A stretch of DNA of 64,000 nt from the NCBI RefSeq assembly GCF_013368755.1, contig NC_049564.1:5297511-5361510 (forward strand), in the 5' to 3' direction. The DNA is from Talaromyces rugulosus. Taxonomy: Eukaryota > Ascomycota > Eurotiomycetes > Eurotiales > Trichocomaceae. The notes under the pieces are model-generated. The model saw only the letters and a list, made by a program, of their open reading frames with translations, made no database searches and was not told where the DNA came from. Positions 911 through 64,000 of the stretch are shown piece after piece. The number at the start of each line of letters is the position of its first letter. The first letter of the stretch is position 1. The position numbers were made by a program, and so were the translations under genes.

Positions 911-1023
911 ATGTAAGAACTTTTTTCTAGTACTATGACCGCTGGTTCGAAGTTCCTGTGGCGTCCTCTACTATTCTTTCGAGCCTGATGTAGAACAGGA
1001 GAATGAGCCTACCGGGTACTGGT

Positions 1024-30906: not shown

Positions 30907-33430
30907 AAAATGCCAGGAGGTGTCGCCATGCTGTGTGGCCCTACAGTAGGAAATCTCTAACTGAACTTAAGACATTCATAGGATATGTAGAATCATGGTT
31001 CAGTAGATATCCAGAGTGTATAGCTTTGGTATATAACCTAATATTGCGTATGACCTGATTAAGTTGAATATCCCGGCTATCTGGACCATAGTGATCCAAC
31101 AGTTGGTTATGTTTGTTGAATGGGATATCTATACTATAAATTTGCGTATACGCGCACCTGTGCCTAGCTATCTCCCTATTACCAGTACATGTATTAATCA
31201 TATTAGTGGTCCTGAGTCTCTGAAAGATTAGATAGCTATCTATATAGATAAACAGATTTCAGCATAAGTAGTATTGATCTCCTGTCCTTATTTAATGTTT
31301 AGTCCCTTATTTCCTGTTAAAGCCAACTTGTAGTATTTTGCGATTATTCTTGAGATTGAAGTTTATGTTCAAGAGTGATTTTTTTTTGAGCTAGATGAAG
31401 CTACAGCCCCTAATTATATGTGCGAGATGTTAATCCAGAATATGGCAGATGTATTGGCGAGCATGTAAAGGTCCTGGATCTGAAAGATTATATAGCTTTT
31501 ATCTATATACAGTAGAAACAGATTCCAGGCATAAGTAGGATTAGATATACGTCTTATTAATGTTAGTATAGGAATTTGCCCGCTATCTGTGAACCTTTAA
31601 AGATTAGATAGATATACAGTATAGCAAGGAACAGTATATGAAGTTTCTCATGGTAAAGGTTCTGTGGCCTATCCAAGATAAGTCGAGTAGTATTAGATAT
31701 AGTACACCCTATTAGAGATGTATTAGGATAAAGCACCGTGCAATTTCTGCAGAAACTAGAAGATGCTATGTGGTAAAAGATATTGATGTTTTTTTAGTAT
31801 ACACAGCAGCCGCACGAGTAGACTAGTCCTCTGTATTGATTCACGCGACGACAGCGCATGGCATGGGAACGGTTGGTCAACGTGGTGCGGATTCCACCCA
31901 CCCGCTAGGTGAGCAAGGGTAAGGTGATTACGTGATCCGGGGCCACGCGGGCACTGCTGTGGGAGGAGGAGGAGGAGGAGGAGGAGGAGGAGGAGGAGGA
32001 GGAGGAGGAGGAGGAGGAGGAGGAGAGGAGGAGGAGGAGGAGAGAGATACTATGTCGATTGATTCGTTGTCTGTGGACAGCAACGAACCTGATTTTTTCA
32101 ATGATAGGAGTGACGGGATAGAGAAGACGATGGAGGAGACGGCCATAGGGAGAATGGTTGATGTGGATGCCATATTTGATATTGAGCGCCTCTCGGAGAA
32201 TGAGGAGGAAGCCAGTAATATTACTGTGCTGCTATTGAGCCCTATAGAGCAGGTGTGTTTGGATTTTTGCATTAAATTATTGAACCAGCGCATTACCTGA
32301 TGGGAGTCTAACAGTGTATTAATGTATGCTGTAGCCATATTGGGGGTTCATGAGGGCGGTTTCCGTACATCTAAGGATTATCTACCTATTTTATTGCGAA
32401 TAATTAAGGTTATGCGGTTTATAGTGCTGGGAACTGTGAAGGTGAGGAGGAGGATATGGCCAAGTTGCCCAGTTCTATAGATTATATAGATTAGGACAGC
32501 GTATATAGTAGATCACCGCTACATTTGCTGAGATAGTGAAAAGCCCTTAGGCTAGTAAAAGCTATTGATGGGTGAGTTGTCCGAATATACGGGTAGAATA
32601 GGGACGAGTTATGTTATAAGAGTTATAGACTTTGAGGGGCTGATCTGAATGAGTGGGCACCCCTTTTATATAGTGGATATTGATGGATATAACAACCCCA
32701 GTAATAACTAGATATAATAAAGTTTTTTACAGAACATCTAAATGTAATGGCTTATAGAATCTTGACATAGATTGTTAAAACCTAGCTATGTGGTATCAAT
32801 TTATCTAGGTTAATAGGTAAGGGTTGGCTGAAGGAATAGAGACTATGTCTTTCTATGAAGTATATGAAAGCTTGGTAGCTGGGTGTATGGTATATATCCA
32901 GCATAAGAACAGTTTTATAGGTGGGATCCATAATATATTTATCGAGGATAATATGGTGGTATTGATTATACAGTATCATAAGGATTACTAATTAAGTAGT
33001 GATATTAAGATTGGGAAGTACTGTTAGATATAGAGATGTCTGGAATAGATGAGCTTTGATTGCTAGATTATCTAACCAAAATACCTGAGTGTAGTGAACT
33101 GTACTACAATCAATGGAATTCTAAATAATTACAACATATATTATAGCGCGAGAGTATTATGGAATTATGTGGTCAATCATTGCACATTACATCATATCAT
33201 GAGTTAAATCTAGGGTTAGTGTTATAGACTATAATCACAAACTTTTATAGACTATAAAGCTAGTAATTTGTAATTGGCCGATGCCACTAATTATTAAGCT
33301 AGGCATGATCTATACACAGCCAGTAGTATATACGTTAGAAAAGCCACAAGTGTTTAAGCAACCACCTAGCGGTCACTAGAGAATAGCGATATTTAGATAG
33401 TAATCATTAAAATAGGATAGGTTTTTCAGG
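30907..33430 (+). pseudogene. TLH helicase unit A, scrambled and RIP-decayed
   Basis: It holds pieces of the TLH gene in roughly native order: the N-terminal zinc finger part at 30915-31130, the region after it at 31290-31480, the acidic repeat and following part at 31790-32470, and the mid-gene at 32800-33000. Each piece is AT-shifted with many stops. Odd joins occur: a start-of-unit motif (TAACCAAAATACCTGAG) at 33073 and leader-like text at 33204-33270 are spliced into mid-gene sequence. A pure GGA repeat (about 31958-32044) stands where the intact gene encodes Glu-rich sequence. Confidence 0.6.
31958..32044 (+). repeat. GGA/GAG microsatellite (acidic-repeat site of TLH)
   Basis: This is an almost perfect (GGA)n run at the position of the poly-Glu coding tract in the TLH gene. 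Tracts of different length occupy the same site in the other units: about 34780-34870, 45890-45985, 49866-49918, 52586-52669 and 57978-58029. Confidence 0.85.
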
Positions 33431-43379: not shown

Positions 43380-44183
43380 GAAGTCTTTCCCTAGACATAA
43401 TCATTTTCCGACTAACTCTCCGGTGGGCTGACTTCCTCAAGATTCTTCAGCTCTGGTGCTTTCTTCTTCAGAGGACAATCAAATGCTCTATGCCCTGGCA
43501 ACTTACAGTTAAAGTACTTGTTCTCCTCCATCAGCTTCTTTCGTTCCAACCACGGTAGGCCTTCTGATCCATTCTTCACTTTCAGAGTTACTGGATTTAG
43601 GTAGCTCTCACCAGGTCTAGGGTATGTATCAGTCTTATGTAGGCGTGCATACTTCTCACTAGTATTGATCTACTCAAGATGATTAGCAGTGGTGCTGCAT
43701 TTCTTAACAAATTCCTGGTATGAGACATGTAGGTCATTACTCTTTTTAATCATTGCATGCTGCAACTCAAAAAACAATTTATAGAACAGGTCCTCTTTCT
43801 ACTCACTAGTGGCCAAGCCTATATCCTAAGCAAGCAGTACAAATTACAAAAGAAAAGGCTGGAACTTAGTATCTCTTATCATAAAGCGTCGCAGTTCTAT
43901 CTTAGCATTAATGACCCTATTGACGTCCTAATACAGAGTACAAAGATGGTTAAAGATATCATCCACATCATAATATCGATCAAACAAGTCCTTTCTCATA
44001 CGAGCAAGCAAGTAATTCACTACTTCTCCTTTACACATACTCTTCACATAGACCATACGTGCCTAGGTAGTAGAATAATAGTCAGCATTGGCTTCGAGCT
44101 TCCCTTCAACATCGATAAGCCACGACTCAAACTTAAGATCCTTCTTATCCACCAGCACCTGCCTATCTGGCAACTTAATACTC
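43380..44183 (-). pseudogene. Retrotransposon gag relic
   Basis: The capsid-like part has WLIDVEGKLEANADYYS and VKSMCKGEVVNYLLARMRK. The zinc knuckle is NKYFNCKLPGHRAFDCP, in which the first Cys of CCHC has become Tyr. Stops replace several codons. The frame begins abruptly at the junction at 44183/44184. Confidence 0.75.
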
Positions 44184-44331
44184 TAACCAAAATACCTGAG
44201 TGTAGTGAACTGTACTACAATCACAAACTCTATTTTAGGGTTATTTTTGCTAGTTAAATCTAGGGTTAGTGTCATAGACTACAATCACGAACTTTTGTAG
44301 ACTACAATCAGGTTTTGTCGCCTGATCGCCC
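44184..44331 (+). repeat. TLH-unit leader, truncated copy
   Basis: It starts TAACCAAAATACCTGAGTG and runs through the first 148 bases of the unit leader, then is cut at GATCGCCC and joined to the start of the next unit. It is the shortest unit in the array. Confidence 0.85.
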
Positions 44332-47300
44332 TAACCAAAATACCTGAGTGTAGTGAACTGTACTACAATCACAAACTCTATTTTAGGGTTATTTTTGCTA
44401 GTTAAATCTAGGGTTAGTGTCATAGACTACAATCACAAACTTTTATAGACTACAATCAGGTTTTGTCGCCTGATCGCCCTCAAAATTAGACCAGTTATTT
44501 TCATACCATTAAATCGCTCGTCACTGGAGAATAAGCAATATTCAAGTTATTATACCACTGTCGTGGTTAATTAAAAAGGATAGGTTTTTTAGGTTGTTTT
44601 GATTGGGGTGCGATGGGCGCTAGTGGCCAGGATATATTGCATGCGCGCCATGACAGATCATCAGGAGTTCCAACATATTAGGGCATGGTTATATATAATC
44701 ATATATTGTCTATACTATAGATTACCATTACTATTATAGATAGTATTAGTATTTATCATATTTACCAGGGTAATTCATTATTATCATTATATATAACACG
44801 TTTTTCGAGCAACTAGAGAAGTTTCCCATTATGGTATACCAGGAGTGTCGCCATGCCGTGTGGCCCAGCTAGATTAAAACGTATTTACGTCGTGCGCATT
44901 GTTATGTGTCCACTATTATACACATCACATTAGCTGATAATGTTCGTACATGGCCCAACATCGCGCATGACCCGATCGAGTTGAATATCCTAGCCACCCA
45001 AACCATAGTGATCCAATAATTGATCGCGCCCATTGATAGATATCGATGTCAATTAAGTTCCCATTCATGCCAATACATATGCACTACTATACCTATTATG
45101 CGGCAGTATTGGATCAAGCATTATCAGTAGTCCCAGACCTAAAAGATTAGACAGCCCACCCACATAGAGCAGAAACAGATTCAGCATAAGCAGGACTAGG
45201 TATACTGTCCTATTCAATGCTAGTGGTTATTTCCTATCAAGGCCAACTCACAGTATTTTGCGATTATTCCTGAGATGGATGAAGCCATGGCTCCTGACGG
45301 TGATACGTGCGAGATGTTAATCCAGAATATGCAGGCGCATTAGCGCAGCGTGCAGAAGGCTATGGATCAGAAGATCCAGGCTGGTCAGGTCGACAAGGCC
45401 AACCCGTGGTTACAGCGAACCAAATGGGTAAAGTATTTGAGGGAGTTTAACATCCCTGATTTAATACAGAGTATAAATCTATCCCCCGCGGATATCAATA
45501 GCCAGCCATCTATCAAGCCGGAAGCCCACGCTATTTAGACAGCCATAGCGCGGTTAGCTACAATCAGCCAGTTGTCCGTGATTCACCAGATTAGAGTATT
45601 TGTGCGATTGGAAGCTATCTGGACCGAGCAGCATCAGACACAGTATACCCCGTTAGAAGCGTACTAGGATGAGGAGTCAATCGTAAAGCAGATGCGGCTG
45701 TGGCAGGAGATGTTGATATTTTTTTGGCGTATATAGCAGCTGCACGAGTGGACTAGTCCTCTGTATCGATTCACGCGACAACAGCGCATAGCATGAGAGC
45801 AGTTGGTCAATGTGGTGTAGATTCTACCCACCCACCAGGTGAGCAAGGGTAAGGTGATCACACAATCCAGGGCCACGTGGGCACCGTGGGTGGAGGAAGA
45901 GGAAGAAGAGGAGAAAGAGAAGGAGAAGGAAAAAGAGAAGGAGGAGAAGAAGGAAGAGAAAGAAAAGAAAGAGGAGGAGAAGAGAGACACTATATCAATT
46001 AATTTGTTGTCCATAGATAGCAATAAACCCAATTTTTTCAATAATAGGAGTGATAGGATAGAGAAGACAATAGAGAAGACAGCTATAGAAAGAACAGTTA
46101 ATATGGATGCCATATTTAATATTAAGCGCCCTCTAAAAAATAAGAAAAAAACCAGCAACATCACTATGCTGCCATTGAGCCCCGTAGAGCGGGCATATTT
46201 AGATTTTTGTATCAAATTATTAAACCAACACATCACCTAATAGAAATATGACAACGTATTAGTGTATACCATAGCTATATTAAGAGTTCATAAAGGCGGT
46301 TTCTGTACACCCAAGGATTACCCACCTATTTTATCGCAAGTAATCAAGGTCGCGCGGTTTATAATAGTAAAAAAAGCCGTCGAATTAAATAACAAGCCTA
46401 AAGAGGAGGATGTGGCCGAGTTATCCAATTCTATAGACCATACAGATTAAGACAGTGCATATAGTGGATCACCACCACCCAGTTTGCTAGGCTGCAAAGG
46501 ATGTTTACAGTAGATAACCTAGATGATGGATCAGTTCATAATACGCAGATCGCAAGGCCCTACGCAATAGATGTTGGATTTGCGCACATATAGATTAAAG
46601 ATCTATTATAACACGACCAGCGCCAGCCATGTATAATGACAGAATAAGGACGAGTTATGTTATAAGAACCAGCAGTTCACTATAAATAAGTTTCATGATA
46701 TAGTGCACGCAGTGGTCTAGAACGTGTGGCGGATATTGATCAACAACATATTAGAATATCCGTCCAACACCGTGCCAGCCATTCCATGGGACCGTTTGTA
46801 TAACAACCCTAGCAATAACCAGACACGATAGAATTTTTTACAAGACATCTAAATGTAATGGCCCATAGATAAAAAGTATTAGATGTGGCATCAAATCTAT
46901 TAGGACCCAGCTATACAGCGTCAATTCATCCAGGCCAACAGGCAAGGGTTTCATCTGGCGCGATGGATAATATATCAGAACCAGATCACTACATTTTTAG
47001 AAAAATTATTGGTGGCTATCTAGTTCACATAGAGTCAACCAGCACAGGCCCCCAAATTATTGAGCATCCGGCACAAGAACAGTCCTATAGATAGAATCTA
47101 TAATATATTTATCGAGGATAGTATAGTAGTATTAGTCGCACAGTACTATAAAGATTATCAATTAAGCAACAACATTAAGATTATCTATCAATATTTACTA
47201 CGCGAGGTGGGTGAGTTATTAATATAGTATTTATGGTTAGTACAGCCGTTCAAGCAGGTAGTCAGTGGAAATATATATTAACAGGACCAGGTATCCAGCC

Positions 47301-48304
47301 ATATTTAGACCACCCACCCACACCAAGCGAAATAGAATTCTGAATGATTACAACATATATTGCAGCGTAAGAGTACTATAGGATTACACAGTCAATCATT
47401 GCACATTATATCATATTATAAGGTTGTGATTGCTATCAGCTGGTGGTATTTACACAACAAATATCAATTTACAGCGAATGATAGAGACGACCCTAAGGCC
47501 ATGGACAAGGTACAATTATTAGCCAATGCCACCAATCATCAGGCTGGGTATGATCCACACACAGCCAGTAATATATACGCCTGGGAGAGCCACGAGTTGT
47601 TTGGCGCTATAGCGTCCATATAAGAATAATATCATAGTAGCAGTCAAGATTGACATATATAGTTAAAGTTTACATTATACTAGCCACCATCCAACCTAGA
47701 TGCCGATCTATTTAGCGCACCCCCAGCATCCAGCATATCATAGTTCACGGACAAGGCATAGCATAGCCAGAAAGAACAATGGCAGCAGATACAACACATA
47801 GATATTAACCAAACGTTGCATAATATAATAAGACCAGATGCCACATTTCACAGGCCACAGAAGCAGATTATACAGGCTGTGATCCAAAAACAGAGCCCAG
47901 TCATCAGCATAATATCTACTGGTGGTGGCAAGAGTTTATTATTCATATTGCCAGCATAGATGGCCCGCAGTAACACAACAGTTATTATTATCCTATTAGT
48001 ATTGTTACAAGATGATTTACAACATCAATATGCGGAATTAGACATTCAATGTGTTGCATAGAACAACCAACAACCCACCAATAATACATCAATTATGTTA
48101 ATCACACCTGAATCCACTGTATATAACGAAACATTCAGCATATTTTTAAACTACAAGCAGTTCACCAGCCAGTTAAACCAGATCATAATCAACAAATATT
48201 ATATCATATTGTACAACCAGTACGATTTCCACAAATCAATGATGTAGTTGGGGCAGTTAGTCTAGTACCATGCCCTCATGTTGTTATTAACGGCGACGAT
48301 GCCC
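44332..48304 (+). pseudogene. TLH helicase unit C, heavily RIP-decayed, cut after helicase motif III
   Basis: The leader is 44332-44788. The start codon has become ATA (44789) and the frame is full of TAG/TAA where the intact copy has CAG/CAA/TGG. Order and spacing are otherwise collinear with the intact gene to GACGATGCCC (48304), just after the LLLTATMP block. The last two RecQ motifs and the C-terminus are missing. The acidic tract (45890-45985) reads as mixed Glu/Lys from GAG-to-AAG changes, so open pieces such as 45839-46240 are remnants, not genes. Confidence 0.85.
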
Positions 48305-50495
48305 TAACCAAAATACCTGAGTGTAGTGAACTGTACTACAATCACAAACTCTATTTTAGGGTTATTTTTGCTAGTTAAATCTAGGGTTAGTGTCATAGAC
48401 TACAATCACGAACTTTTGTAGACTACAATCAGGTTTTTGTCGCCTGATCGCCCTCAAAATTGGACCAGTTATTTTCATACCATTAAATCGCTCGTCACCG
48501 GAGAATGAGCGATATTCAAGTTATCGTGCCGCTGTCGTGGTTAATTGAAAAGGACGGGTTTTTCAGGTTGTTTTGGTTGGGGTGCGACGGGCGCTAGTGG
48601 CCAGGATATATCGCGTGCGCGCCATGACGGATCGTCAGGGGTTCTGACGTATTAGGGCATGGTTATATATAATCATATATTGTCCATACTACAGATTACC
48701 ATTACTATTATAGATAGCATTAGTATTTATCACATTTACCAGGGCAATTCATTATTATCATCATGTATAACACGTTTTTCGAGTAACTAGAGGAGTTTCC
48801 TATTGTGGTATGCCGGGAGTGTCGCCATGCCGTGTGGCCTAGCTAGATTGAAACGCATTTGCGTTGCGCGCACCGTTATGTGTCTACTATCATGTGCGTC
48901 ACATTGGCCGATGATGTTTGTACATGGCCTAATATCGCGCATGATCTGATTGAGTTGAATATCCCGGCTATCCGGACCATAGTGATCCAACAGTTGGTCG
49001 CGTTTGTTGATGGATATTGATGTCAATTGAGTTCCTATTCGTGCTAATATATATGCACTACCATGCCTATTATGTGGCAGTATTGGATCAAGCATTATCA
49101 GTGGTCCTGGATCTGAAAGATTGGACAGCCTACCCACATGGAGCAGAAACAGATTCAGTATGAGCAGGATTAGGCATGCTGTCCCGTTCAATGCCAGCGG
49201 TTGTTTCCTGTTAAGGCCAACTCGCAGTATTTTGCGATTATTCCCGAGACGGATGAAGCTGTGGCCCCCGATGGTGATGCGTGCGAGACGTTAATCCAGA
49301 ATATGCAGGCGCATTGGCGCAGCGTGCAGGAGGCCGCGGATCGGAAGATCCAGGCTGGCCAGGTCGACGAGGCCAACCCGTGGTTACGGCGAACCGAGTG
49401 GGTGAAGTATTTGGGGGAGTTCGACATCCCCGATTTGATATAGAGTGTGAGCCTACCCCCCGCGGATATCGATGGCCAGCCGTCTATTGAGCCGGAAGCC
49501 CACGCCATTTGGACGGCTATGGCGTGGTTGGCTACGATCAGCCAGTTGTCCGTGATTCACCAGATTGGGGTGTTTGTGCGGTTGGAAGCCATCTGGACTG
49601 AGCAGCATTAGACGCGGTACACCCTGTTAGAGGCGTATTAGGATGAGGAGTTAATTGTGAAGCAGGTGCGGCCGTGGTAGGAGATGTTGATGTTTTTTTG
49701 GCGTACGCAGCAGCTGTACGAGTGGACCAGTCCTTTGTATCGATTTATGCGACGACAGCGTATGGTATGGGAGCGGTTGGTTGACGCGGTGCGGATTCCA
49801 CCCATCTGCTAGGTGAGCAAGGGTAAGGTGATCATGCGATCCGGGGCCACGCGGGCACCGTGGGTGGAGGAAGAGGAGGAAGAGGAGGGGGAGGAGGAGG
49901 AGGAGGAGGAGGAGGAGAGAGATACCATGTTGATTGATTCGTTGTCCGTGGACAGTAACGAACCCGATTTTTTCAATGATAGGAGTGACGGGATAGAGAA
50001 GACGATGGAGGAGACGGCTATGGGGAGAACGGTTGATGTGGATGCTATATTTGATATTGAGCGCCCCCCGGAGAATGAGGAGGAAGCCAGTAATATCACT
50101 GTGCCGCCATTGAGCCCTGTGGAGCGGGTGTGTTTGGATTTTTGCATTGAATTGTTGAACCAGCGCATCATTTGATGGGAGTATGACAGCGCATTAGTGT
50201 GTGCCGCAGCTGTATTGGGGGTTTGTGAGGGCGGTTTCCGTACGCCCGAGGATTACTCGCCTATTTTATCGCGAGTGATCAAGGTCGCGCGGTTCATGGT
50301 GGTGAAGAAAGCCGTTGAATTGAGTGACGAGCCCGAGGAGGAGGATGTGGCTGAGTTGCCCAGTTCCATGGACTATACGGATTGGGACAGCGTATATGGT
50401 GGATCGCCGCTACCTAGTTCGCCAGGCCGCAAAGGATGTTTGCAGTGGGTGACCTAGATGATGGATTGGTTCATGGTGCGCGGATCGCAAGGCCC
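48305..50495 (+). pseudogene. TLH helicase unit D, 3'-truncated
   Basis: The unit has a complete leader and ATG 48763, but codon 8 is TAA (CAA in the intact gene) and more stops follow. The unit ends at GGATCGCAAGGCCC (50495), about 570 codons into the gene. Unlike the terminal copy it keeps six C in the run at about 50064-50069, so the frame across that point is the ancestral one. Its first 360-1300 bases match units F and G almost base for base, including the same mutations. Confidence 0.9.
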
Positions 50496-50730
50496 TAACC
50501 AAAATACCTGAGTGTAGTGAACTGTACTACAATCACAAACTCTAACCAAAATACCTGAGTGTAGTGAACTGTACTACAATCACAAACTCTAACCAAAATA
50601 CCTGAGTGTAGTGAACTGTACTACAATCACAAACTCTAACCAAAATACCTGAGTGTAGTGAACTGTACTACAATCACAAACTCTAACCAAAATACCTGAG
50701 TGTAGTGAACTGTACTACAATCACAAACTC
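50496..50730 (+). repeat. Five tandem copies of the 47-bp unit-start repeat
   Basis: The units start at 50496, 50543, 50590, 50637 and 50684, each opening TAACCAAAATACCTGAG and closing CACAAACTC. Each holds a 6-bp stem (TGTAGT/ACTACA) around GAACTGT. All five look identical. Most other leaders have one copy; the leader at 54179 has three. Confidence 0.95.
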
Positions 50731-51022
50731 TATTTTAGGGTTATTTTTGCTAGTTAAATCTAGGGTTAGTGTCATAGACTACAATCACAAACTTTTATAG
50801 ACTACAATCAGGTTTTGTCGCCTGATCGCCCTCAAAATTAAACCAGTTATTTTCATACCATTAAATCGCTCGTCACCGGAGAATGAGCGATATTCAAGTT
50901 ATCATACCGTTGTTGTGGTTAATTAAAAAGGACAGGTTTTTCAGGTTGTTTTGGTTGGGGTACGACAGGCGCTAGTGGCCAGGATATATCACGTGCGCGC
51001 CATGACGGATCGTCAGGGGTTC
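50731..51022 (+). repeat. TLH-unit leader, truncated copy
   Basis: This is leader sequence following the five-fold repeat, cut at CAGGGGTTC and joined to the next unit start. It carries the same leader mutations as unit E (ATTAAACCAG, ATCATACCG), so the two share a source. Confidence 0.85.
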
Positions 51023-54000
51023 TAACCAAAATACCTGAGTGTAGTGAACTGTACTACAATCACAAACTCTATTTTAGGGTTATTTTTGCTAGTTAAATCT
51101 AGGGTTAGTGTCATAGACTACAATCACAAACTTTTATAGACTACAATCAGGTTTTGTCGCCTGATCGCCCTCAAAATTAAACCAGTTATTTTCATACCAT
51201 TAAATCGCTCGTCACCGGAGAATGAGCGATATTCAAGTTATCATACCGTTGTTGTGGTTAATTAAAAAGGACAGGTTTTTCAGGTTGTTTTGGTTGGGGT
51301 ACGACAGGCGCTAGTGGCCAGGATATATCACGTGCGCGCCATGACAGATCGTCAGGGGTTCCAACGTATTAGGACATAGTTATATATAATTATATATTGT
51401 CTATACTACAGATTACCATTACCATTATAGATAGCATTAGTATTTATCACATTTACCAAAGCAATTCATTATTATCATCATGTATAACACGTTTTTCGAG
51501 CAACTAGAGGAGTTTCTTATTATGGTATGCCGGGAGTGTCGCTATGCCATGTGGCCCAGCCAGATTGAAACGCATTTGCGTCGCGTGCACCGTTATATGT
51601 CCACCACCATGCGCATCACATTGACCGATGATGTTTGTACATGGCCTAACATCGCGCATGATCTGATTGAGTTGAATATCCTGGTCACCTGGACCACAGT
51701 GATCTAACAGTTGGTCGTGCCTGTTGATGGATATCGATGTTAATTGAGTTCCTATTCGTGCCAATATATATGCACTACTATGCCTATTATGTGGCAGCAT
51801 TGGATTAAGCATCATCAGTGGTCCCGGACCTGAAAGATTGGATAGCCCACCTACATGGAGCAGAAACAGATTCAGCACGAGCAGGACCAGGTATGCTGTT
51901 CTGTTCAATGCCAGCGGTTGTTTCCCGTCAAGGCTAACTCGCAGTATTTTGCGATTATTCCTGAGATGGATGAAGCTGTGGCCCCCGACGGTGATGTGTG
52001 TGAGATGTTAATCTAGAATATGCAGGCGCATTGGCGCAGCGTGTAGGAGGCTGCGGATCGGAAGATTTAGGCTGGCCAGGTTGATGAGGCCAACCCGTGG
52101 TTATGGTGAACCGAGTGGGTGAAGTATTTGGGGGAGTTCAACATCTCTGATTTGATATAGAGTGTGAGCTTACCTCCTGCGGATATTGATGGCCAGCCAT
52201 CTATTGAGCTGGAAGCCCACGCTATTTGGACGGCTATGGTGTGGTTGGCCATGATCAGCCAGTTGTCCGTGATTCACCAGATTGGGGTGTTTGTGTGGTT
52301 GGAAGTTATCTGGATTGAGCAGCATCAGACGCGGTACACTCTGTTAGAGGTGTACCAGGATGAGGAGTTAATTGTGAAGCAGGTGTGGCTGTGGCAGGAG
52401 ATGTTGATGTTTTTTTGGCGTACACAGCAGCCGCACGAGTGGACTAGTCCCTCGTATCGATTCACGCGACGACAGCGCATGGCATGGGAGCGGTTGGTCG
52501 ACGTGGTGTGGATTCCACCCACCCGCCAGGTGAGCAAGGGTAAGGTGATCACGCGATCCGGGGCCACGCGGGTACCGTGGGTGGAGGAAGAGGAGGAAGA
52601 GGAGGAGGAGGAGGAGGAGGAGGAGGAGGAGGAGGAGGAGGAGGAGGAGGAGGAGGAGGAGGAGGAGAGAGACACCATGTCGATTGATTCGTTGTCTGTG
52701 GACAGCAACGAACCCGATTTTTTCAATGATAGGAGTGACGGGATAGAGAAGACGATGGAGGAGATAGCTATAGGGAGAACAGTTAATATGGATGCCATAT
52801 TTGATATTGAGCGCCCCCCGGAGAATGAGGAGGAAGCCAGCAACATCACCATGCCACCATTGAGCCCCATAGAGCGGGCGTGTTTGGATTTTTGCATCGA
52901 ATTGTTGAACCAGCGCATTACTCGACAGGAGTACAATAGTGTATTAGTGTGTGCCGTAGCTGTATTAGGAGTTCGTGAGGGTGGTTTCCATATACCTGAG
53001 GATTACCCATCTATTTTATCGCGAGTGATCAAGGTCGCGCGGTTCATGGTAGTGAAGAAAGCCGTCGAATTGAGTGACGAGCCTAAGGAGGAGGATATAG
53101 CTGAGTTGCCCAGTTCTATGGACTACATAGATTGGGACAGCGTATATAGTAGATCACCGCCACCTAGTTCGCCAGGCCGCAAAGGATGTTTGTAGTGGGT
53201 GACCCAGATGATGGATCAGTTTATGGTGCGTGGATCGCAAGGCCCCATATAATGGATGTTGGATTTGCGTATATATGGATTAAAGATTTATTACAATATG
53301 ACCAGCACCGGCTATGTATAGTAGTAGAATGGGGATGAGTTATATTATAAGGACTGGCAGTTTACTATGAATAAGTTTCGTGGCATGGTGTATATGGTGG
53401 TCTAGGATATGTGGCAGATATTGATCAATAATATATTAGGATGCCCGTCTGATGCTGTACTAGCTATTCTATAGGACTGTTTGTATGACGACCCCAGTAA
53501 TAACTAGATATGATAGAGTTTTTTACAGGACATCTAAACGCAATGGCCTGTGGATAGGGAGCATTGGATATGGTATCGAATCTGTTAGGACCTAGCTGTA
53601 CAGCGTCGATTCATCTAGGCTGATAGGCAAGGGTTTTATCTGGCATGATGGATGGCGTATCAGAACCGGATTACTGTGTTTTTAGAGAAGTTGTTAGTGG
53701 CTATCTAGTTTATATAGGGTCAACCGGCGCAGGCTTCTGAGTTGTTGAGCATCCGGCATAAGAACAGTCCCATGGGTGGGATCCGTAATATATTTATCAA
53801 GGATGGCATGGTGGTATTGGTCGTGCAGTACCACAAGGGTTATTAATTGAGCGGCGACGTTAAGATTATCCATCGATATTTACCACGCGAGGTGGGTGAG
53901 TTATTAGTGTGGTATTTATGGTTGGTGCAGCCGTTCGAGCAGGTGGTTAGTGGAAATATATATCAATGGGACTAGGTGTCCAGCTATATTTGGACTGCCC

Positions 54001-54178
54001 ACCTACACCAAGTGAAATGGAATTCCAAACGATTACGATATATATTGCAGCGCGAGAGTGCTATGGGATTGTGTGGTTAATTATTGCATATTGTATTATA
54101 TTATGAGGTTGTGATTGTTATCAGCTGGCGGTATTTACGCAACAAATATCGATTTGTGGTGGATGATGGAGACGACCC
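51023..54178 (+). pseudogene. TLH helicase unit E, RIP-decayed, 3'-truncated before the helicase motifs
   Basis: The leader is 51023-51479 and ATG is 51480. The first stop replaces codon 76 (CAA to TAA). A 343-codon piece (52164-53195) remains open and contains the longest Glu tract of the array (52586-52669, about 28 GAG/GAA), but it has no independent gene structure. Six C are kept at the site where the terminal copy has five. The unit ends at GAGACGACCC (54178), short of the Walker A motif. Confidence 0.85.
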
Positions 54179-54319
54179 TAACCAAAATACCTGAGTGTAG
54201 TGAACTGTACTACAATCACAAACTCTAACCAAAATACCTGAGTGTAGTGAACTGTACTACAATCACAAACTCTAACCAAAATACCTGAGTGTAGTGAACT
54301 GTACTACAATCACAAACTC
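54179..54319 (+). repeat. Three tandem copies of the 47-bp unit-start repeat
   Basis: The units start at 54179, 54226 and 54273, identical to those at 50496-50730. Confidence 0.95.
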
Positions 54320-55097
54320 TATTTTAGGGTTATTTTTGCTAGTTAAATCTAGGGTTAGTGTCATAGACTACAATCACGAACTTTTGTAGACTACAATCAG
54401 GTTTTGTCGCCTGATCGCCCTCAAAATTGGACCAGTTATTTTCATACCATTAAATCGCTCGTCACCGGAGAATGAGCGATATTCAAGTTATCGTGCCGCT
54501 GTCGTGGTTAATTGAAAAGGACGGGTTTTTCAGGTTGTTTTGGTTGGGGTGCGACGGGCGCTAGTGGCCAGGATATATCGCGTGCGCGCCATGACGGATC
54601 GTCAGGGGTTCTGACGTATTAGGGCATGGTTATATATAATCATATATTGTCCATACTACAGATTACCATTACTATTATAGATAGCATTAGTATTTATCAC
54701 ATTTACCAGGGCAATTCATTATTATCATCATGTATAACACGTTTTTCGAGTAACTAGAGGAGTTTCCTATTGTGGTATGCCGGGAGTGTCGCCATGCCGT
54801 GTGGCCTAGCTAGATTGAAACGCATTTGCGTTGCGCGCACCGTTATGTGTCTACTATCATGTGCGTCACATTGGCCGATGATGTTTGTACATGGCCTAAT
54901 ATCGCGCATGATCTGATTGAGTTGAATATCCCGGCTATCCGGACCATAGTGATCCAACAGTTGGTCGCGTTTGTTGATGGATATTGATGTCAATTGAGTT
55001 CCTATTCGTGCTAATATATATGCACTACCATGCCTATTATGTGGCAGTATTGGATCAAGCATTATCAGTGGTCCTGGATCTGAAAGATTGGACAGCC
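54320..55097 (+). pseudogene. TLH helicase unit F, N-terminal fragment
   Basis: The rest of the leader is followed by ATG 54730 and about 123 codons, with TAA at codon 8 as in units D and G. It is cut at GGACAGCC (55097). Confidence 0.9.
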
Positions 55098-56416
55098 TAA
55101 CCAAAATACCTGAGTGTAGTGAACTGTACTACAATCACAAACTCTATTTTAGGGTTATTTTTGCTAGTTAAATCTAGGGTTAGTGTCATAGACTACAATC
55201 ACGAACTTTTGTAGACTACAATCAGGTTTTGTCGCCTGATCGCCCTCAAAATTGGACCAGTTATTTTCATACCATTAAATCGCTCGTCACCGGAGAATGA
55301 GCGATATTCAAGTTATCGTGCCGCTGTCGTGGTTAATTGAAAAGGACGGGTTTTTCAGGTTGTTTTGGTTGGGGTGCGACGGGCGCTAGTGGCCAGGATA
55401 TATCGCGTGCGCGCCATGACGGATCGTCAGGGGTTCTGACGTATTAGGGCATGGTTATATATAATCATATATTGTCCATACTACAGATTACCATTACTAT
55501 TATAGATAGCATTAGTATTTATCACATTTACCAGGGCAATTCATTATTATCATCATGTATAACACGTTTTTCGAGTAACTAGAGGAGTTTCCTATTGTGG
55601 TATGCCGGGAGTGTCGCCATGCCGTGTGGCCTAGCTAGATTGAAACGCATTTGCGTTGCGCGCACCGTTATGTGTCTACTATCATGTGCGTCACATTGGC
55701 CGATGATGTTTGTACATGGCCTAATATCGCGCATGATCTGATTGAGTTGAATATCCCGGCTATCCGGACCATAGTGATCCAACAGTTGGTCGCGTTTGTT
55801 GATGGATATTGATGTCAATTGAGTTCCTATTCGTGCTAATATATATGCACTACCATGCCTATTATGTGGCAGTATTGGATCAAGCATTATCAGTGGTCCT
55901 GGATCTGAAAGATTGGACAGCCTACCCACATGGAGCAGAAACAGATTCAGTATGAGCAGGATTAGGCATGCTGTCCCGTTCAATGCCAGCGGTTGTTTCC
56001 TGTTAAGGCCAACTCGCAGTATTTTGCGATTATTCCCGAGACGGATGAAGCTGTGGCCCCCGATGGTGATGCGTGCGAGACGTTAATCTAGAATATGCAG
56101 GCGCATTGGCGCAGCGTGCAGGAGGCCGCGGATCGGAAGATCCAGGCTGGCCAGGTCGACGAGGCCAACCCGTGGTTACGGCGAACCGAGTGGGTGAAGT
56201 ATTTGGGGGAGTTCGACATCCCCGATTTGATATAGAGTGTGAGCCTACCCCCCGCGGATATCGATGGCCAGCCGTCTATTGAGCCGGAAGCCCACGCCAT
56301 TTGGACGGCTATGGCGTGGTTGGCTACGATCAGCCAGTTGTCCGTGATTCACCAGATTGGGGTGTTTGTGCGGTTGGAAGCCATCTGGACTGAGCAGCAT
56401 TAGACGCGGTACACCC
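55098..56416 (+). pseudogene. TLH helicase unit G, N-terminal fragment
   Basis: The unit has a complete leader and ATG 55555, TAA at codon 8, and is collinear to GCGGTACACCC (56416), about 287 codons. The mutations are those of units D and F apart from rare single changes (for example ATCTAGAAT here against ATCCAGAAT in D). Confidence 0.9.
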
Positions 56417-56873
56417 TAACCAAAATACCTGAGTGTAGTGAACTGTACTACAATCACAAACTCTATTTTAGGGTTATTTTTGCTAGTTAAATCTAGGGTT
56501 AGTGTCATAGACTACAATCACGAACTTTTGTAGACTACAATCAGGTTTTGTCGCCTGATCGCCCTCAAAATTGGACCAGTTATTTTCATACCATTAAATC
56601 GCTCGTCACCGGAGAATGAGCGATATTCAAGTTATCGTGCCGCTGTCGTGGTTAATTGAAAAGGACGGGTTTTTCAGGTTGTTTTGGTTGGGGTGCGACG
56701 GGCGCTAGTGGCCAGGATATATCGCGTGCGCGCCATGACGGATCGTCAGGGGTTCCGACGTATTAGGGCATGGTTATATATAATCATATATTGTCCATAC
56801 TACAGATTACCATTACCATTATAGATAGCATTAGTATTTATCACATTTACCAGGGCAATTCATTATTATCATC
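56417..56873 (+). repeat. Leader of the terminal TLH unit (probable promoter region)
   Basis: These 457 bases lie between the unit-start repeat and the TLH start codon and are shared by units C-G. They contain telomere-like TTTTAGGGTTATT and CTAGGGTTAGTG, and two ACTACAATCA direct repeats. A TATATATAATCATATAT stretch near 56774-56790 could serve as TATA region. No promoter evidence exists beyond position. Confidence 0.7.
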
Positions 56874-59800
56874 ATGTATAACACGTTTTTCGAGCAACTA
56901 GAGGAGTTTCCCATTGTGGTATGCCGGGAGTGTCGCCATGCCGTGTGGCCCAGCCAGATTGAAACGCATTTGCGTCGCGCGCACCGTTATGTGTCCACCA
57001 CCATGCGCGTCACATTGGCCGATGATGTTCGTACATGGCCCAACATCGCGCATGACCCGATCGAGTTGAATATCCCGGCCACCCGGACCACAGCGATCCA
57101 ACAGTTGGTCGCGCCCGTTGATGGATATCGATGTCAATTGAGTTCCCATTCGTGCCAATACATATGCACTACCATGCCCACCATGCGGCAGCATTGGATC
57201 AAGCATCATCAGTGGTCCCGGACCCGAAAGATCGGACAGCCCACCCACATGGAGCAGAAACAGATTCAGCACGAGCAGGACCAGGCATGCCGTCCCGTTC
57301 AATGCCAGCGGTTGTTTCCCGTCAAGGCCAACTCGCAGTATTTTGCGATTATTCCCGAGACGGATGAAGCCGTGGCCCCCGACGGTGATGCGTGCGAGAC
57401 GTTAATCCAGAACATGCAGGCGCATTGGCGCAGCGTGCAGGAGGCCGCGGATCGGAAGATCCAGGCCGGCCAGGTCGACGAGGCCAACCCGTGGTTACGG
57501 CGAACCGAGTGGGTGAAGTATTTGGGGGAGTTCGACATCCCCGATTTGATACAGAGTGTGAGCCCACCCCCCGCGGATATCGACGGCCAGCCGTCCATCG
57601 AGCCGGAAGCCCACGCCATTTGGACGGCCATGGCGCGGTTGGCCACGATCAGCCAGTTGTCCGTGATTCACCAGATTGGGGTGTTTGTGCGGTTGGAAGC
57701 CATCCGGACCGAGCAGCATCAGACGCGGTACACCCCGTTAGAGGCGTACCAGGATGAGGAGTCAATCGTGAAGCAGGTGCGGCCGTGGCAGGAGATGTTG
57801 ATGTTTTTTTGGCGTACGCAGCAGCCGCACGAGTGGACCAGTCCCCCGTATCGATTCACGCGACGACAGCGCATGGCATGGGAGCGGTTGGTCGACGCGG
57901 TGCGGATTCCACCCACCCGCCAGGTGAGCAAGGGTAAGGTGATCACGCGATCCGGGGCCACGCGGGCACCGTGGGTGGAGGAAGAGGAGGAAGAGGAGGG
58001 GGAGGAGGAGGAGGAGGAGGAGGAGGAGAGAGACACCATGTCGATTGATTCGTTGTCCGTGGACAGCAACGAACCCGATTTTTTCAATGATAGGAGTGAC
58101 GGGATAGAGAAGACGATGGAGGAGACGGCCATGGGGAGAACGGTTGATGTGGATGCCATATTTGATATTGAGCGCCCCCGGAGAATGAGGAGGAAGCCAG
58201 CAACATCACCGTGCCGCCATTGAGCCCCGTGGAGCGGGCGTGTTTGGATTTTTGCATCGAATTGTTGAACCAGCGCATCACCCGACGGGAGTACGACAGC
58301 GCATTAGTGTGTGCCGCAGCCGTATTGGGGGTTCGTGAGGGCGGTTTCCGTACGCCCGAGGATTACCCGCCCATTTTATCGCGAGTGATCAAGGTCGCGC
58401 GGTTCATGGTGGTGAAGAAAGCCGTCGAATTGAGTGACGAGCCCGAGGAGGAGGATGCGGCCGAGTTGCCCAGTTCCATGGACCACACGGATTGGGACAG
58501 CGCATATGGTGGATCGCCGCCACCCAGTTCGCCAGGCCGCAAAGGATGTTTGCAGTGGGTGACCCAGATGATGGATCGGTTCATGGTGCGCGGATCGCAA
58601 GGCCCCACGCAATGGATGTTGGATTTGCGCACATATGGGTTGAAGATCCATTACAACACGACCAGCGCCGGCCATGTACAGTGGCAGAATGGGGACGAGT
58701 TATGTTATAAGGACCGGCAGTTCACCATGAATGAGTTTCGTGGCATGGTGCACGCGGTGGTCCAGGACGCGCGGCGGATATTGATCGACGACATATTAGG
58801 ATGCCCGTCCGACGCCGTGCCAGCCATTCCATGGGACCGTTTGTATGACGACCCCAGCAATAACCAGGCACGATGGAGTTTTTTACAGGACACCCGAACG
58901 CAATGGCCCGTGGATGGGGAGCATTGGATGTGGCATCGAATCCGTCAGGACCCAGCCGTGCGGCGTCGATTCATCCAGGCCGACGGGCAAGGGTTTCATC
59001 CGGCGCGATGGATGGCGTATCAGAACCGGATCACTGCGTTTTTAGAGAAGTTGTTGGTGGCCATCCAGTTCACATGGGGTCAACCGGCGCGGGCCCCCGA
59101 GTTGTTGAGCATCCGGCACGAGAACAGTCCCATGGGTGGGATCCGTAATATGTTTATCGAGGATGGCATGGTGGTATTGGTCGCGCAGTACCACAAGGGT
59201 TACCAATTGAGCGGCGACGTTAAGATCATCCATCGATATTTACCACGCGAGGTGGGTGAGTTATTAGTGTGGTATTTGTGGTTGGTGCAGCCGTTCGAGC
59301 GGGTGGTCAGTGGAAATATATATCAACGGGACCAGGTGTCCAGCCATATTTGGACCGCCCACCCACACCAAGCGAAATGGAATTCCGAACGATTACGACA
59401 CATATTGCAGCGCGAGAGTGCCATGGGATTGCGCGGTCAATCATTGCACATTGCATCATATCGTGAGGTTGCGATTGCCATCAGCCGGCGGTATTTACGC
59501 AACAAATATCGATTTGCGGCGGATGATGGAGACGACCCCGAGGCCATGGACGAGGTGCAATTGTTGGCCGATGCCGCCGATCGTCAGGCCGGGCATGATC
59601 CACACACGGCCGGTGGCATATACGCCCGGGAGAGCCGCGAGTTGTTTGGCGCCATGGCGTCCATGCGAGAACGATATCGTGGTAGCAGTCAGGATTGGCA
59701 TACATGGTTAGGGTTTGCATCATGCCAGCCGCCGTCCGACCCGGATGCCGATCCATTTAGCGCGCCCCCAGCATCCAGCACATCGTGGTTCACGGACGAG

Positions 59801-61858
59801 GCGCAGCGCAGCCGGGAGGAACGGTGGCAGCGGATGCAGCGCATGGATGTCGACCAGGCGTTGCGCGACATGATGGGACCGGACGCCGCATTTCGCGGGC
59901 CACAGAAGCAGATTGTGCAGGCCGTGATCCAAGGACAGAGCCCGGTCATCGGCGTGATGCCCACCGGTGGTGGCAAGAGTTTGTTGTTCATGTTGCCGGC
60001 ATGGATGGCCCGCGGTGGCACGACGGTCGTTATCATCCCATTGGTGTCGTTACGAGATGATTTACAGCGTCGATGCGCGGAATTAGACATTCAATGTGTC
60101 GCATGGAACAACCGGCAACCCGCCGATGGTGCATCGATTGTGTTAATCACGCCCGAGTCCGCCGTACGTGACGAAACATTCAGCACGTTTTTAAACCGCA
60201 AGCAGTTCACCGGCCAGTTGGACCGGATCGTGATCGATGAATGCCACATCGCATTGCACGACCAGTACGATTTCCGCAAGTCGATGACGCAGTTGGGGCA
60301 GTTGGTCCGGTACCGTGCCCCCATGTTGTTGTTGACGGCGACGATGCCCCGAGAGGACGAGGAGCGATTGTGCCAGCGGATGTATTTCCCCCCCAGCACC
60401 GTGCATTGGATCCGCGCGCGTACCAGTCGTCACAACATTGCATATCGGGTGGTCCGCATTGCGCGGCCGCAGGAGCATGGCCGACGTGGTGACGTGGGAG
60501 CGGCCATCATGGCGTGGATTGAACAGGAGATCCCGCGATATTCGCCCGGCAAGGTGGTGGTGTACGCCAACAGCCGGCACCAGACGGAGCAGGTCGCGGA
60601 GGCATTGGGATGCGGTGCATACCATTCCCACACGATTGATCGAGCCGGGATGTTGAGCACATTCCGACAGACGCCCAGCGGCGTCATCGTGGCCACCAGT
60701 GCATTAGGCATGGGCATCGATATCCCCGACATCCGGTGTGTGATCCACGTTGGGCGTCCCCGATCGTTGTTGGATTATGCCCAGGAGAGTGGGCGTGCCG
60801 GGCGAGATGGGCAGGGCAGCACGGCGGTGATGGTTTTGGACGGTAGTGGTGGTGGATGGGGGGACCCAGTGACCGATCGAGATGCGGGATCATTGCGGGC
60901 ATTGGAGCAGGTACAGCGGTACATTGATCAGCCATGTCGACGAGGCGTGTTCGATCCATATTTGGATGGGGAGGTGGATGGGTACCAGCGGCAGCAGTGC
61001 GAGGAGGGTGAAGCGGCGTGTGATGGATGTTGTGCGGCAGCCATACCGGTTGAGACGCAGGCCACATCACCGACCACGCAGAGTGAGACCCCGGCCATAT
61101 CACCGGCCAGGCGGGTTCAGGTCCAGGCCAGATCACCAGTCCCGGCACCGGCGCGGTCCCCGAAACGAAAGTTAAGCGAGGCATTCACCATGGTGACAAT
61201 GCCGCATGCCCGGCGGAGAGGATACAACGAGCCATGGGAGCAATTACGATCACACATCGAGCGTGAGGCGCGAACGGTGGATTCCATCCGGGAGCATTTT
61301 GACCGGTGGGTGGGACGATGCCGGATTTGCGCGATGCACGAGGCACCCAGCGAGCATTTCACGTATCAATGTCCCCGGGCCGAAGGCCAACAGGCGGCGG
61401 CGTGGATCGAGGAGACCATCCGCAAGGTGACCGGGAATCAACGCGAAGATGGGAGGAACGGGTATGAGGATTATGCGGTATGTTTTCAGTGCCATTCGCC
61501 GCAGTGGATATGTCCACGATGGGTTCGTGTCGATCATGGTGGATATCAGCGTACCAAAGAAGCATGTCGATATTTGGAGACGGCGGCGCACACCATGGCG
61601 CAGTTGTTGCATGGACCGATGCGGGAGGTGATCCAGCCAGCATGGGAGCGGCGGTTGGCGCAGATGCCCGGGGGAGGGGTCCCCCATGAGAACCAGGCCG
61701 CGTTGATTCGTCATTTTCAGCGGAAGTTTGGAAAACGTGGAGAGGAGCGTAGTGGGTTGGTAGAAGAGATGACGTGGATGTGTTCATGGGTCGACGATAC
61801 GATGCAGGTAGATGTCGAGAGCAGTGAGGATTCCAATTCAATCATAAGCCATATGTAG
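56874..61858 (+). CDS. Telomere-linked RecQ-type helicase (TLH), one-base frameshift
   Basis: ATG 56874 to TAG 61858 gives about 1661 codons if one missing C at 58175-58179 is allowed for. Units D and E have six C there and this copy has five. As read, a 449-codon frame ends at 58223 and a 1215-codon frame begins at 58211. Zinc-finger-like [20 protein letters not shown] (C17, C20, H32, H37) and a second Cys/His cluster (C87, C94, H107, H112) resemble the DUF3505 type. A Glu tract follows near 370-385. The helicase part has Walker A MPTGGGKS (about 1028-1035), the DECH box VIDECH (about 1118), TATMP (about 1157) and [12 protein letters not shown] (about 1303), as in RecQ. CDGCCAAA and [20 protein letters not shown] are further Cys clusters near the C-terminus. 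Proteins of this kind lie next to telomeres in many fungi and are thought to help maintain chromosome ends. Whether this copy is functional depends on the C-run. Confidence 0.9.
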
Positions 61859-61910
61859 ATACATACACCACAATAATATAGAAATAGAGGAGGTTCCATA
61901 AGCACAAAAT

Positions 61911-62298
61911 GCCCGTATGATGGTCAAGCAGAGGTTTGTAGGCATTGGCCCGCATGACGGTCAAGCAGAGGTTTGTAGGCATAGGCCCGCATGACGGTCA
62001 AGCAGAGGTTTGTAGGCATTGGCCCGCATGACGGTCAAGCAGAGGTTTGTAGGTATAGGCCCGCATGACGGTCAAGCAGAGGTTTGTAGGCATAGGCCCG
62101 CATGACGGTCAAGCAGAGGTTTGTAGGCATTGGCCCGCATGACGGTCAAGCAGAGGTTTGTAGGTATAGGCCCGCATGACGGTCAAGCAGAGGTTTGTAG
62201 GCATTGGCCCGCATGACGGTCAAGCAGAGGTTTGTAGGTATAGGCCCGCATGACGGTCAAGCAGAGGTTTGTAGGCATAGGCCCGCATGACGGTCAAG
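61911..62298 (+). repeat. 37-bp minisatellite behind the TLH gene
   Basis: About 10.5 units of GCATGACGGTCAAGCAGAGG plus TTTGTAGGCATAGGCCC are present, varying only at TAGGCAT/TAGGTAT and AGGCCC/TGGCCC. It starts about 50 bp after the TLH stop. The same repeat follows unit B (38927-39102), so it belongs to the element. Confidence 0.95.
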
Positions 62299-63895
62299 GC
62301 AGTTCCAAATATTTGCATAGATGCATCAGGATCAGGTAGATTATCAGAACCCAGATCAGGTATATACATGGATGAGACAGAAAGTTCAATAGGAAGGCAT
62401 AGAATATACACGCATGAAGCAGGGGTTTTACCAGATCAATAAAAGCATTATTCAGTGATTATATATATTTACAGATGTCAATATAAACCAGTCCGAGGAA
62501 TATATATTTTGAATATTGAATCAAGAGAGTGATATATATATACACAGATCGACATAGATAATATATATATAACAGAATACCAAAAGAAAGCGAGAAAAAG
62601 AAATGGCAAGACCAGAAAGAAAGGAAAGGAGAGTGTTGCAAAGAGGGACATCGTTGTCCAAGGCCAGGGTTCGGGTTACCCATGATGGTGCACAGGGCCC
62701 AATTGAGGCATCATCGGGGAGACGGCAGAGTGTCATGACGAGTTCGGAGAAGCAGAGGAGAAGATGAAAAGGAAAGAGAGAGGATGACGTATCGGTTGGG
62801 GTTAGGGAGAGGGGCCCATGGTGGCCAGGGTTAGGGTTACCAATGATGGTGCAAGGGGCACAATGCGGTTGTCATCCCCATGAGAAACAATTATATATAA
62901 TAGAAAAAAAAGAAAGACGGAAATGAAAGAATAGGAATAGCACAAACAGGAAGAAAAATATAAAAAGTAGAAAAGACCAGAAAGACAGAAAAAATTAGAA
63001 AGGTTGAAAGAGCAGGAAAGGTCGGACAGGCAGGAAAAGGAAAGGAAAAGGTCAGGGTTAAGGTTACCAATGATGGTGCCAGGAGCACAATCCGGCAGTG
63101 ATCCCAGCGAGAGGCAGTTATATATAATAAAGAAAAAGGACAGAAGTGAAACAACAGAGAAAGTAGATAAAGCAAAAAAGCCGAAAAGATAGGAAGGATA
63201 GGAAAGGCAGAAAGGATGGAAAAACAGACCAAGTAGTAATACAGTGCAGTCAGGGTTAGGATTACCAATGATCGTACCAGAGATAGAATGGAGAGAGTCA
63301 GGGTTCAGGTTATTAATGATGGTATAAGAGGTACAATATCATGATTTTACCGGCAAAAAGGTTATTATACACAGTAACCAGAAGAGAAGGACGAAAGTAC
63401 AAAGAACAGAAAAAGACAGAGAAAGAGAGGAAAAGTAAACAAAGGAAAAGGAATATAAGAGAGAAAGGAACGGGACAGAAAAGGCAAAGAAAAAGAATAG
63501 GGAAGGAAAAGGAAAGACAGAGAACAGAAAAGGAATGGAAAAGAACAGGAAAAAGACAAGGAAAGGAAAAGAAAAGGAAAAGAAAAGGAAAAGAAAAGGA
63601 GAGAAAAGGAAAAGGTCAGGGTTAGGGTTGCCAATGATGGTGCACGGGGCCAGATTCGGGGTTGTCAGAAAGACCGCGAAGAGTGTGGACCAGCATCGAT
63701 GCAGAAGAAAAAGACGGGGAAATGGAAAATAAAAGGAAAGGGTGTCGGTCAGGGTTAGGAAGAGGGGTCGATCATGGTCAGGGTTAGGGTTACCAATGAT
63801 GGTGCGAGGAGTATAATCCAGTGGTTACCCCAGCGAGAGGCAAGTATATGGAGTAGAAAAAAGAGAAAGAGAGAAGTGAACGGGAAAGGAAAAGG
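62299..63895. repeat. Subtelomeric spacer with polypurine tracts and embedded telomere-like repeats
   Basis: Seven copies of AGGGTTAGGGTTACCAATGA, followed by TGGTGC and a GC-rich tail (some diverged), lie at about 62662, 62825, 63053, 63252, 63299, 63616 and 63778. They are separated by A/G-rich tracts, densest at 63365-63615, with TATATATAATA patches. Open frames here are simple Lys/Arg/Glu or Phe/Ser/Leu translations of these tracts, so no genes are called. Confidence 0.85.
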
Positions 63896-64000
63896 AGGGT
63901 TAGGGTTAGGGTTAGGGTTAGGGTTAGGGTTAGGGTTAGGGTTAGGGTTAGGGTTAGGGTTAGGGTTAGGGTTAGGGTTAGGGTTAGGGTTAGGGTTGGG
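63896..64000 (+). repeat. Telomere, TTAGGG repeats
   Basis: About 17 perfect TTAGGG units run to the window end and mark the right chromosome terminus. The final unit reads TTGGG. Confidence 0.98.

Follow-up and report, generated by a model that had tools for sequence, protein, structure and literature searches.

The stretch of DNA considered here, called the window below, comprises the 64,000 nucleotides at the right end of contig C4 (5,361,510 bp) of Talaromyces rugulosus, the genome being assembled in six contigs of 35.76 Mb in total. It terminates in (TTAGGG)n telomere repeats (63896–64000, + strand), and immediately before these lies a unit of about 7.5 kb that carries a telomere-linked helicase (TLH) gene with a RecQ helicase core. 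This terminal TLH unit, here called U (56416–63890, + strand, from its head to the last pre-telomere base, with U positions counted from the head), is present at all 11 readable chromosome ends with an identity of 99.45–100%; at nine of them it can be read through to the telomere and has identical final bases before it, at C2R and C3R the sequence stops 517 and 210 bp short of the contig end, and the left end of C4 is N in the part examined and gave no match. Directly 3′ of the gene is a 37-bp tandem repeat of 10.5 copies (61911–62298), and it is in this part that the C5L unit, some 44 bp longer than U, shows an alignment gap of one repeat length.

The TLH gene lies on the + strand in two pieces, the first (56874–58223) of 449 amino acids with an OrsD domain at about 56889–57212, and the second (58406–61858) of 1150 amino acids; the window copy thus contains a frame break, either real or an assembly error, and at other ends, C2L among them, the gene is a single frame of 1661 amino acids. 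The RecQ core (DEAD and Helicase_C, 59903–60811, +) matches RecQ structures in the PDB with an E-value of 2.7e-30, and is adjacent to the telomere at all 11 readable ends. Between OrsD and RecQ (58985–59740, +; residues 194–445 of the 1150-residue piece) structure prediction places a catalytic-domain fold of the tyrosine recombinase/topoisomerase IB superfamily; a second structure model was compared by VIA-align 2. The putative catalytic residues, assigned from motifs and their order, are R229, K264 and R353 (each conserved in 110/110 sequences), H397 (108/109) and Y406 (109/109). Named helicase relatives include those of Alternaria, Pyrenophora and other fungi, and two close TLH relatives filed under a plant, Tanacetum, and a bacterium, Salinispora (P0036 and P0093), probably reflect fungal contamination of those records; pattern scans of viral and genome contigs for relatives gave 146 and 36 matches, none of which was confirmed.

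Proximal to U there is a nested series of damaged TLH units. A sequence-only reading of the window had proposed eight junctions at which a fresh unit begins, and all eight are present, their coordinates being given here as the first C of CTAACC; the joint sequence it had quoted, CCCTAACC, is found at five (44331, 48304, 50495, 54178 and 56416), while the other three read ACT| (44183), GTT| (51022) and AGC| (55097). From 44183 on, the pieces align to U1–148, 1–3934, 1–2190, 1–340, 1–3123, about 1–826 and 1–1320, after which comes the whole of U. All on the + strand, these are a relic of U1–148 whose left partner is not U (44183–44330), one cut at U3933 that carries the marks of repeat-induced point mutation (RIP) and retains 83% identity (44331–48303), one cut at U2189 (48304–50494), four 47-bp heads (50495–50682), and relics cut at U339 (50683–51021) and U3122 (51022–54177), then two further 47-bp heads (54178–54271) and relics cut at U825 (54272–55096) and U1319 (55097–56415). 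The description of such units as 5′-complete and 3′-truncated holds for the copies proximal to the terminal U from 44183 on, the next head directly adjoining each; when these pieces are mapped on U, no remainder of a truncated unit is found downstream in the window. With no remainders and no reverse transcriptase found, LINE-like insertion (that of a long interspersed nuclear element) was rejected, as it had been originally. Allowing two mismatches or fewer, the window holds 16 copies of a 13-mer of the head where 2.47 would be expected, a count that none of 100 shuffles reaches. Exact heads number 15 rather than eight because units also begin with the 47-bp tandem repeat (50495–50683, 54178–54272) and because there is one isolated 41-bp head (33072–33112, +), outside the range considered earlier. 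The last of these lies within an old RIP-mutated TLH relic, between a piece running to about U2811 and one of U2961–3052, with a second head piece (U70–125) at about 33202; the region 33072–33334 is a mosaic, unlike the other relics.

Across the genome, the 17-mer head CTAACCAAAATACCTGAG occurs 84 times (its reversed control not at all). Of the 84, 80 lie no more than 55 kb from a contig end, every one follows a C, and by coordinates 83 read outward. For 72 of these heads the flanking sequence was examined; 45 do not follow another 47-bp repeat, and these reduce to 33 distinct left contexts (for the fragment-only contexts, L036–L052, about 190 bases of left flank). All 33 end in a pyrimidine, C in 16 and T in 17; the outcome that would have refuted the sequence-only reading, no preference for C at other ends, was thus not observed, C or T standing before CTA in every context. 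Where the cut lies within U there are 15 distinct cut points, at which the intact unit reads Y|C followed by C (11) or T (4), the frequency of Y-C-Y in U being 2.8% (Y denotes a pyrimidine and R a purine); the 11 non-native cut points are YCC[A/G] in intact U. Upstream of the joints only positions −1 to −3 stand out, and a longer conserved motif was accordingly rejected. Homology among the left flanks was likewise rejected, with P = 0.0175 at k = 3 and nothing above chance at k = 2 or at k = 4 to 7. The pattern of the joints exists, and it lies well outside anything that chance would produce.

YCT occurs at only five places in the intact unit, all of them within the first 149 bp (U14, 48, 78, 140 and 149; 56416–56565, +), and four of these are used as junctions: heads less than 200 bp apart are spaced by 47 bp (36 times), 77 (once), 139 (twice) or 148 (five times), none of the seven RCT sites is represented, and no 13-bp head, as use of U14 would leave, occurs in the sequence examined. 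The 47-bp arrays may be a record of repeated joins at U48, and slippage may also have enlarged them. The head further contains direct repeats of ACTACAATCA at U32, 96 and 119, with inverted copies TGTAGT (U19) and TTGTAG (U113), which are candidate protein-binding sites, as is possibly TGTAGT/ACTACA at 19–37.

The left partner of each junction can also be compared with a homologue that was never cut. After merging of one RIP variant there are 32 contexts, 21 of which have an uncut homologue in the sequence examined; in the best matches the base at +1 is C in 20, that at +2 is C or T in all 21, and that at +3 is A or G in 19, and in 18 of the 21 some homologue reads CT at the cut. The six with a 100% match over the left partner all read CT, three at native head sites and three at sites made by RIP. 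Uncut targets are CTA, CTG, CTC or the RIP precursor CC, and RIP-mutated copies of the cut sites often read CTA or CTG.

A second, diverged TLH family, whose head CTATCATCAATG shares CTA with that of U, joins in like manner. Its head CTATCATCAATGGA is found exactly at 10 places, all outward by coordinates and nine within about 37 kb of an end; among eight related heads in the sequence examined (one a weak match), C or T precedes seven. The two families also meet in single arrays, a second-family head following truncated U in L025 and L026 and a U head following a truncated second-family copy in L024, while the RIP-damaged TLH of L031 is 24% identical to that of U. The two heads agree in CTA, in having C as their fifth base, and in AAT at 9–11. 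In second-family heads (L024:4727–4766) there is also, at roughly positions 16–39, a palindrome around TACTAGTA or GACTAGTC, another possible binding site. As for C6:84294, a 29-bp micro-insertion was considered there and rejected, because after the head comes a repeat that begins with TGTCATAAG and is present behind the L024 relic as well; judged by its start, this repeat is probably a long terminal repeat.

These comparisons bear on what the joined ends have in common. The sequence-only reading had proposed repeated loss of the distal chromosome followed by capture of a fresh TLH-telomere end, and this is supported; it had also proposed that capture took place through telomere-like CCCTAA homology, and this is not borne out, since the shared factor is pyrimidine-CT, the second family's head is not telomere-like after CTA, and CTG and CTC serve as targets. 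What survives of the microhomology is a brief sequence in common at the joint, together with a role for RIP in creating it. A passive version of capture, in which an eroded end acquires, by joining or by copying, a donor end starting with CTA via 2–3 nt of microhomology (by end joining or break-induced replication) and the recombinase-like domain is uninvolved, would account for the uncut targets often having CTA or CT in common with the head, and truncation with capture at failed telomeres is described in Pyricularia (PMC8381367); it leaves unexplained, however, why the donor end starts at the same base in two families, why a pyrimidine strictly precedes CT, and why, as set out below, all CTN is avoided and not CTA alone. 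Overall it seems unlikely, though it deserves to be kept in view.

On its sense strand U is almost devoid of CT beyond the head. Observed and expected counts are 13/10 in the first 150 bp, 4/18 in positions 151–458, 4/247 across the gene and 0/48 over the final 2032 bp, whereas AG stands at 0.92 of expectation in the gene and 1.13 in the last 2032 bp. Beyond U149 there are eight CT in total against about 310 expected, made up of no YCT (128 expected) and eight RCT (182 expected), or by the following base CTT 0/60, CTC 2/68, CTG 2/99 and CTA 4/83. The + strand of the chromosome is without YCT over its last 7436 nt (56565–64000), and the longest stretch free of CT extends over 4966 nt, where control stretches reach 81 to 268 nt. 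The gene complies, with CTN for one of 92 leucine codons as against 70% in nine open reading frames (ORFs) from non-TLH stretches, and with no YCTR, where 500 synonymous shuffles gave a mean of 20.5 and a minimum of 10. The avoidance can be followed into fossil copies by counting CT followed by C or T, which RIP seldom makes: the ratio of observed to expected is 0.07 to 0.23 for four stretches that are U relics or older TLH sequence, while a fifth gives 0.52; the diverged TLH of L011 gives 0.13, L031 gives 0.21 and the second family 0.24 and 0.41, as compared with 0.98 to 1.37 in six controls (a set without L029, L032 and L035) and 0.68 to 1.14 for the opposite-strand mirror motif in the TLH set. 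U has purged its joint motif from its own sense strand, apparently to escape being cut by its own enzyme. Such a loss of a single dinucleotide from one strand over 7 kb, in a sequence that joins only behind that very dinucleotide, marks self-avoidance at the genomic level with unusual clarity.

It might be argued that the avoidance has another origin independent of the joints, such as a mutation process that affects CT on one strand, or a bias against CU in RNA, given that strand-specific signatures often stem from transcription and that TT exceeds expectation in U (by ratios of 1.39 in the gene and 1.31 in the 3′ part), the trace to be expected of C-to-T change at CT. We regard this as decidedly unlikely: the avoidance ends at the head, where CT is at 13/10, it is complete for the joint motif YCT (0 of 128) and weaker for RCT (8 of 182), and it is complete in a 2-kb non-coding part.

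RIP acts in the opposite direction. Since this process, by which repeats are inactivated, changes C to T, the YCC of a damaged unit becomes YCT; U has four YCTR and 149 YCCR, and each of six RIP-mutated relics has 20 to 66 YCTR, 80 to 94% of them at positions that are CCA or CCG in U. The relics at 54272, 55097 and 48304 carry one common RIP haplotype, sharing 38 of 38 changes (54272 with the C1L unit) and 61 of 62 (55097 with 48304), and were cut at U825, U1319 and U2189 respectively, which implies that one damaged copy was truncated repeatedly. The cut sites at U825 and U1319 are CT made by RIP in sister copies. The 38 C-to-T changes of the relic at 54272 are common to the C1L, C1R and C6R units, which carry the first 39 changes of the haplotype, the last at U827, and are clean beyond it; apparently an in-register repair of the damaged copy, with a clean one as template, took place once near that point. 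Mutation was one-sided in 48304–50494 and 55097–56415, with 111 and 62 C-to-T changes and zero G-to-A, and the relics at 44331 and 51022 have changes of both kinds.

Several junctions also recur elsewhere, by left context at U2189 (five sites), U148 (four), U3122 (four, one a RIP variant), and U3933, U1319 and U139 (two each). With the same left contexts at other ends, the eight junctions of the window are not all private events.

Taken together, joining is only by the head (CTA...), and the target is pyrimidine-CT in the strand that has its 3′ end towards the telomere; material distal to the target is missing from the array, YCT is absent beyond the head of the intact unit, and some targets were made by RIP. 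The reading we put forward, to which we would assign a probability of about one half, is that TLH units are single-ended mobile chromosome caps, of which the recombinase-RecQ protein joins the heads to YCT, the CT-less units being immune and the RIP-marked copies replaced. The tyrosine-recombinase domain, fused to RecQ, would cut the exposed 3′-ended strand at YCT (the substrate being perhaps a resected single strand with its 3′ end facing the telomere) and join the cut strand to an intact unit at its head; that unit would then be copied to the telomere by synthesis resembling break-induced replication, with the RecQ part as helicase. Action on the 3′-ended strand would explain the purging of that strand only, and a single joining end would suffice, the telomere forming the other. 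A unit lacking CT would be immune to its own enzyme, and old copies into which RIP had written CT would be cut and replaced by an intact unit.

Two other mechanisms deserve mention. A reciprocal swap of arms, in which the recombinase crosses over a head with a YCT site, would use the same enzyme and sites, but predicts 5′-truncated, 3′-complete partners, and neither the 11 terminal units nor the relics mapped from 44183 on include one; the 11 near-identical terminal units would still require copying or conversion; reciprocal exchange was therefore rejected, and is the least probable of the readings considered. Reverse transcription of an antisense RNA with a 3′ end ...UUAG, primed by the 3′ end of the chromosome as in HeT-A or MoTeR, the other end being shortened by erosion or incomplete copying, fits the geometry of a constant proximal and a variable distal end, and the 5′ ends of MoTeRs point towards the chromosome end (PMC7367193). 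It is nevertheless very improbable, since U has, besides the two TLH pieces, just nine antisense ORFs of 100–166 amino acids (the TLH pieces gave no reverse transcriptase by Pfam, those antisense ORFs not being scanned), a scan of 19 sequences showed no interstitial TTAGGG/CCCTAA array with at least two repeats, and no reason is offered for avoidance of CT on the sense strand.

A number of observations weigh against the proposal of a recombinase-driven cap. The evidence comes from one genome in one assembly. At least one head (C6:84294), and also a one-mismatch copy (C3:5800432), read inward, 84 and 96 kb inside the nearest end, by inversion or another route; one second-family head follows A; the sister haplotype of the U339 relic, 99.5% identical, reads CC, and for three contexts the homologues read CCA or CCC only. 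The C1L, C1R and C6R units have 16 YCT each and yet are whole, so that cutting, if it occurs, is not immediate. As for the enzyme, Foldseek E-values for the domain are weak, TLH has no integrase match in Pfam or PHROGs, and profile similarity to known recombinases is not significant, with hhalign probabilities of 0.1% (a narrow XerD profile) and 0.4% (10 recombinases), so that placement in the superfamily rests on fold and residues; moreover, the first His of HxxR is not conserved, A or Q standing at −3 from R353 in 96 of 110 sequences, and another residue may take its place.

A more far-reaching reading, which we hold somewhat more tentatively, is that the element distinguishes self from damaged self by one dinucleotide, RIP restoring the cut site, so that mutated copies would serve as landing pads for fresh ones and host defence as a signal for renewal, with TLHs across fungi acting as recombinases rather than plain helicases. 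A recombinase fold with its catalytic residues between OrsD and RecQ, conserved in 110 aligned sequences, would recast TLHs in this way, and the link with RIP suggests a defence process guiding the renewal of damaged chromosome ends. To our knowledge the function of TLHs in fungi is unsettled; a literature search by titles and the starts of abstracts found no link between TLH and tyrosine recombinases, CT avoidance not being among the subjects searched for.

It remains to compare these units with known systems. The Y′ elements of yeast are likewise subtelomeric, encode a helicase and spread between ends, but do so by homology and are not known to form head-specific YCT joints. Helitrons encode a Rep-helicase protein and have 5′-TC and 3′-CTRR ends; the TLH pieces gave no Rep match, and the joints here are C/T|CTA. 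Among transposons with a tyrosine recombinase are Cryptons and Starships, the latter resembling U in having the recombinase gene near the 5′ end and CTA in some targets; of 20 Starships, 19 have direct and 18 inverted repeats (PMC12153272). Starships, however, have two defined ends where U has one, the other being the telomere, and TLH shows no Pfam match to the DUF3435 captain at E-values up to 5–10. Poxvirus type IB topoisomerases, which share the predicted fold, favour the pyrimidine target (C/T)CCTT (PMC2666729), and a pyrimidine target would be in keeping with the superfamily; that enzyme, however, relaxes supercoils and belongs to no mobile element.

Nearer at hand, TLH-like RecQ genes adjoin telomeres at many ends in full and truncated copies (PMC12857005; PMC10532341), and OrsD occurs together with a RecQ gene (PMC10532341, PMC11457142). 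Fungal TLHs, the Ustilago UTASa/UTASb and the TLH-containing regions of Fusarium oxysporum are like U in this respect; as far as the available portions of these sources go, fungal TLHs, UTASa/UTASb included, are described without a recombinase domain, a YCT joint rule or CT avoidance. MoTeRs and FoTeRs likewise form arrays at chromosome ends with truncated copies and tandem repeats at one end, and RIP is reported in FoTeRs; they encode a reverse transcriptase and sit in telomere repeats (PMC12857005; PMC7367193), whereas here no reverse transcriptase was found in the TLH pieces and no array of two or more such repeats proximal to the units in the 19 sequences. The individual components of the TLH system are of known kinds, and what sets it apart is their combination: one joining end together with a telomere, and a target motif erased from the element itself.

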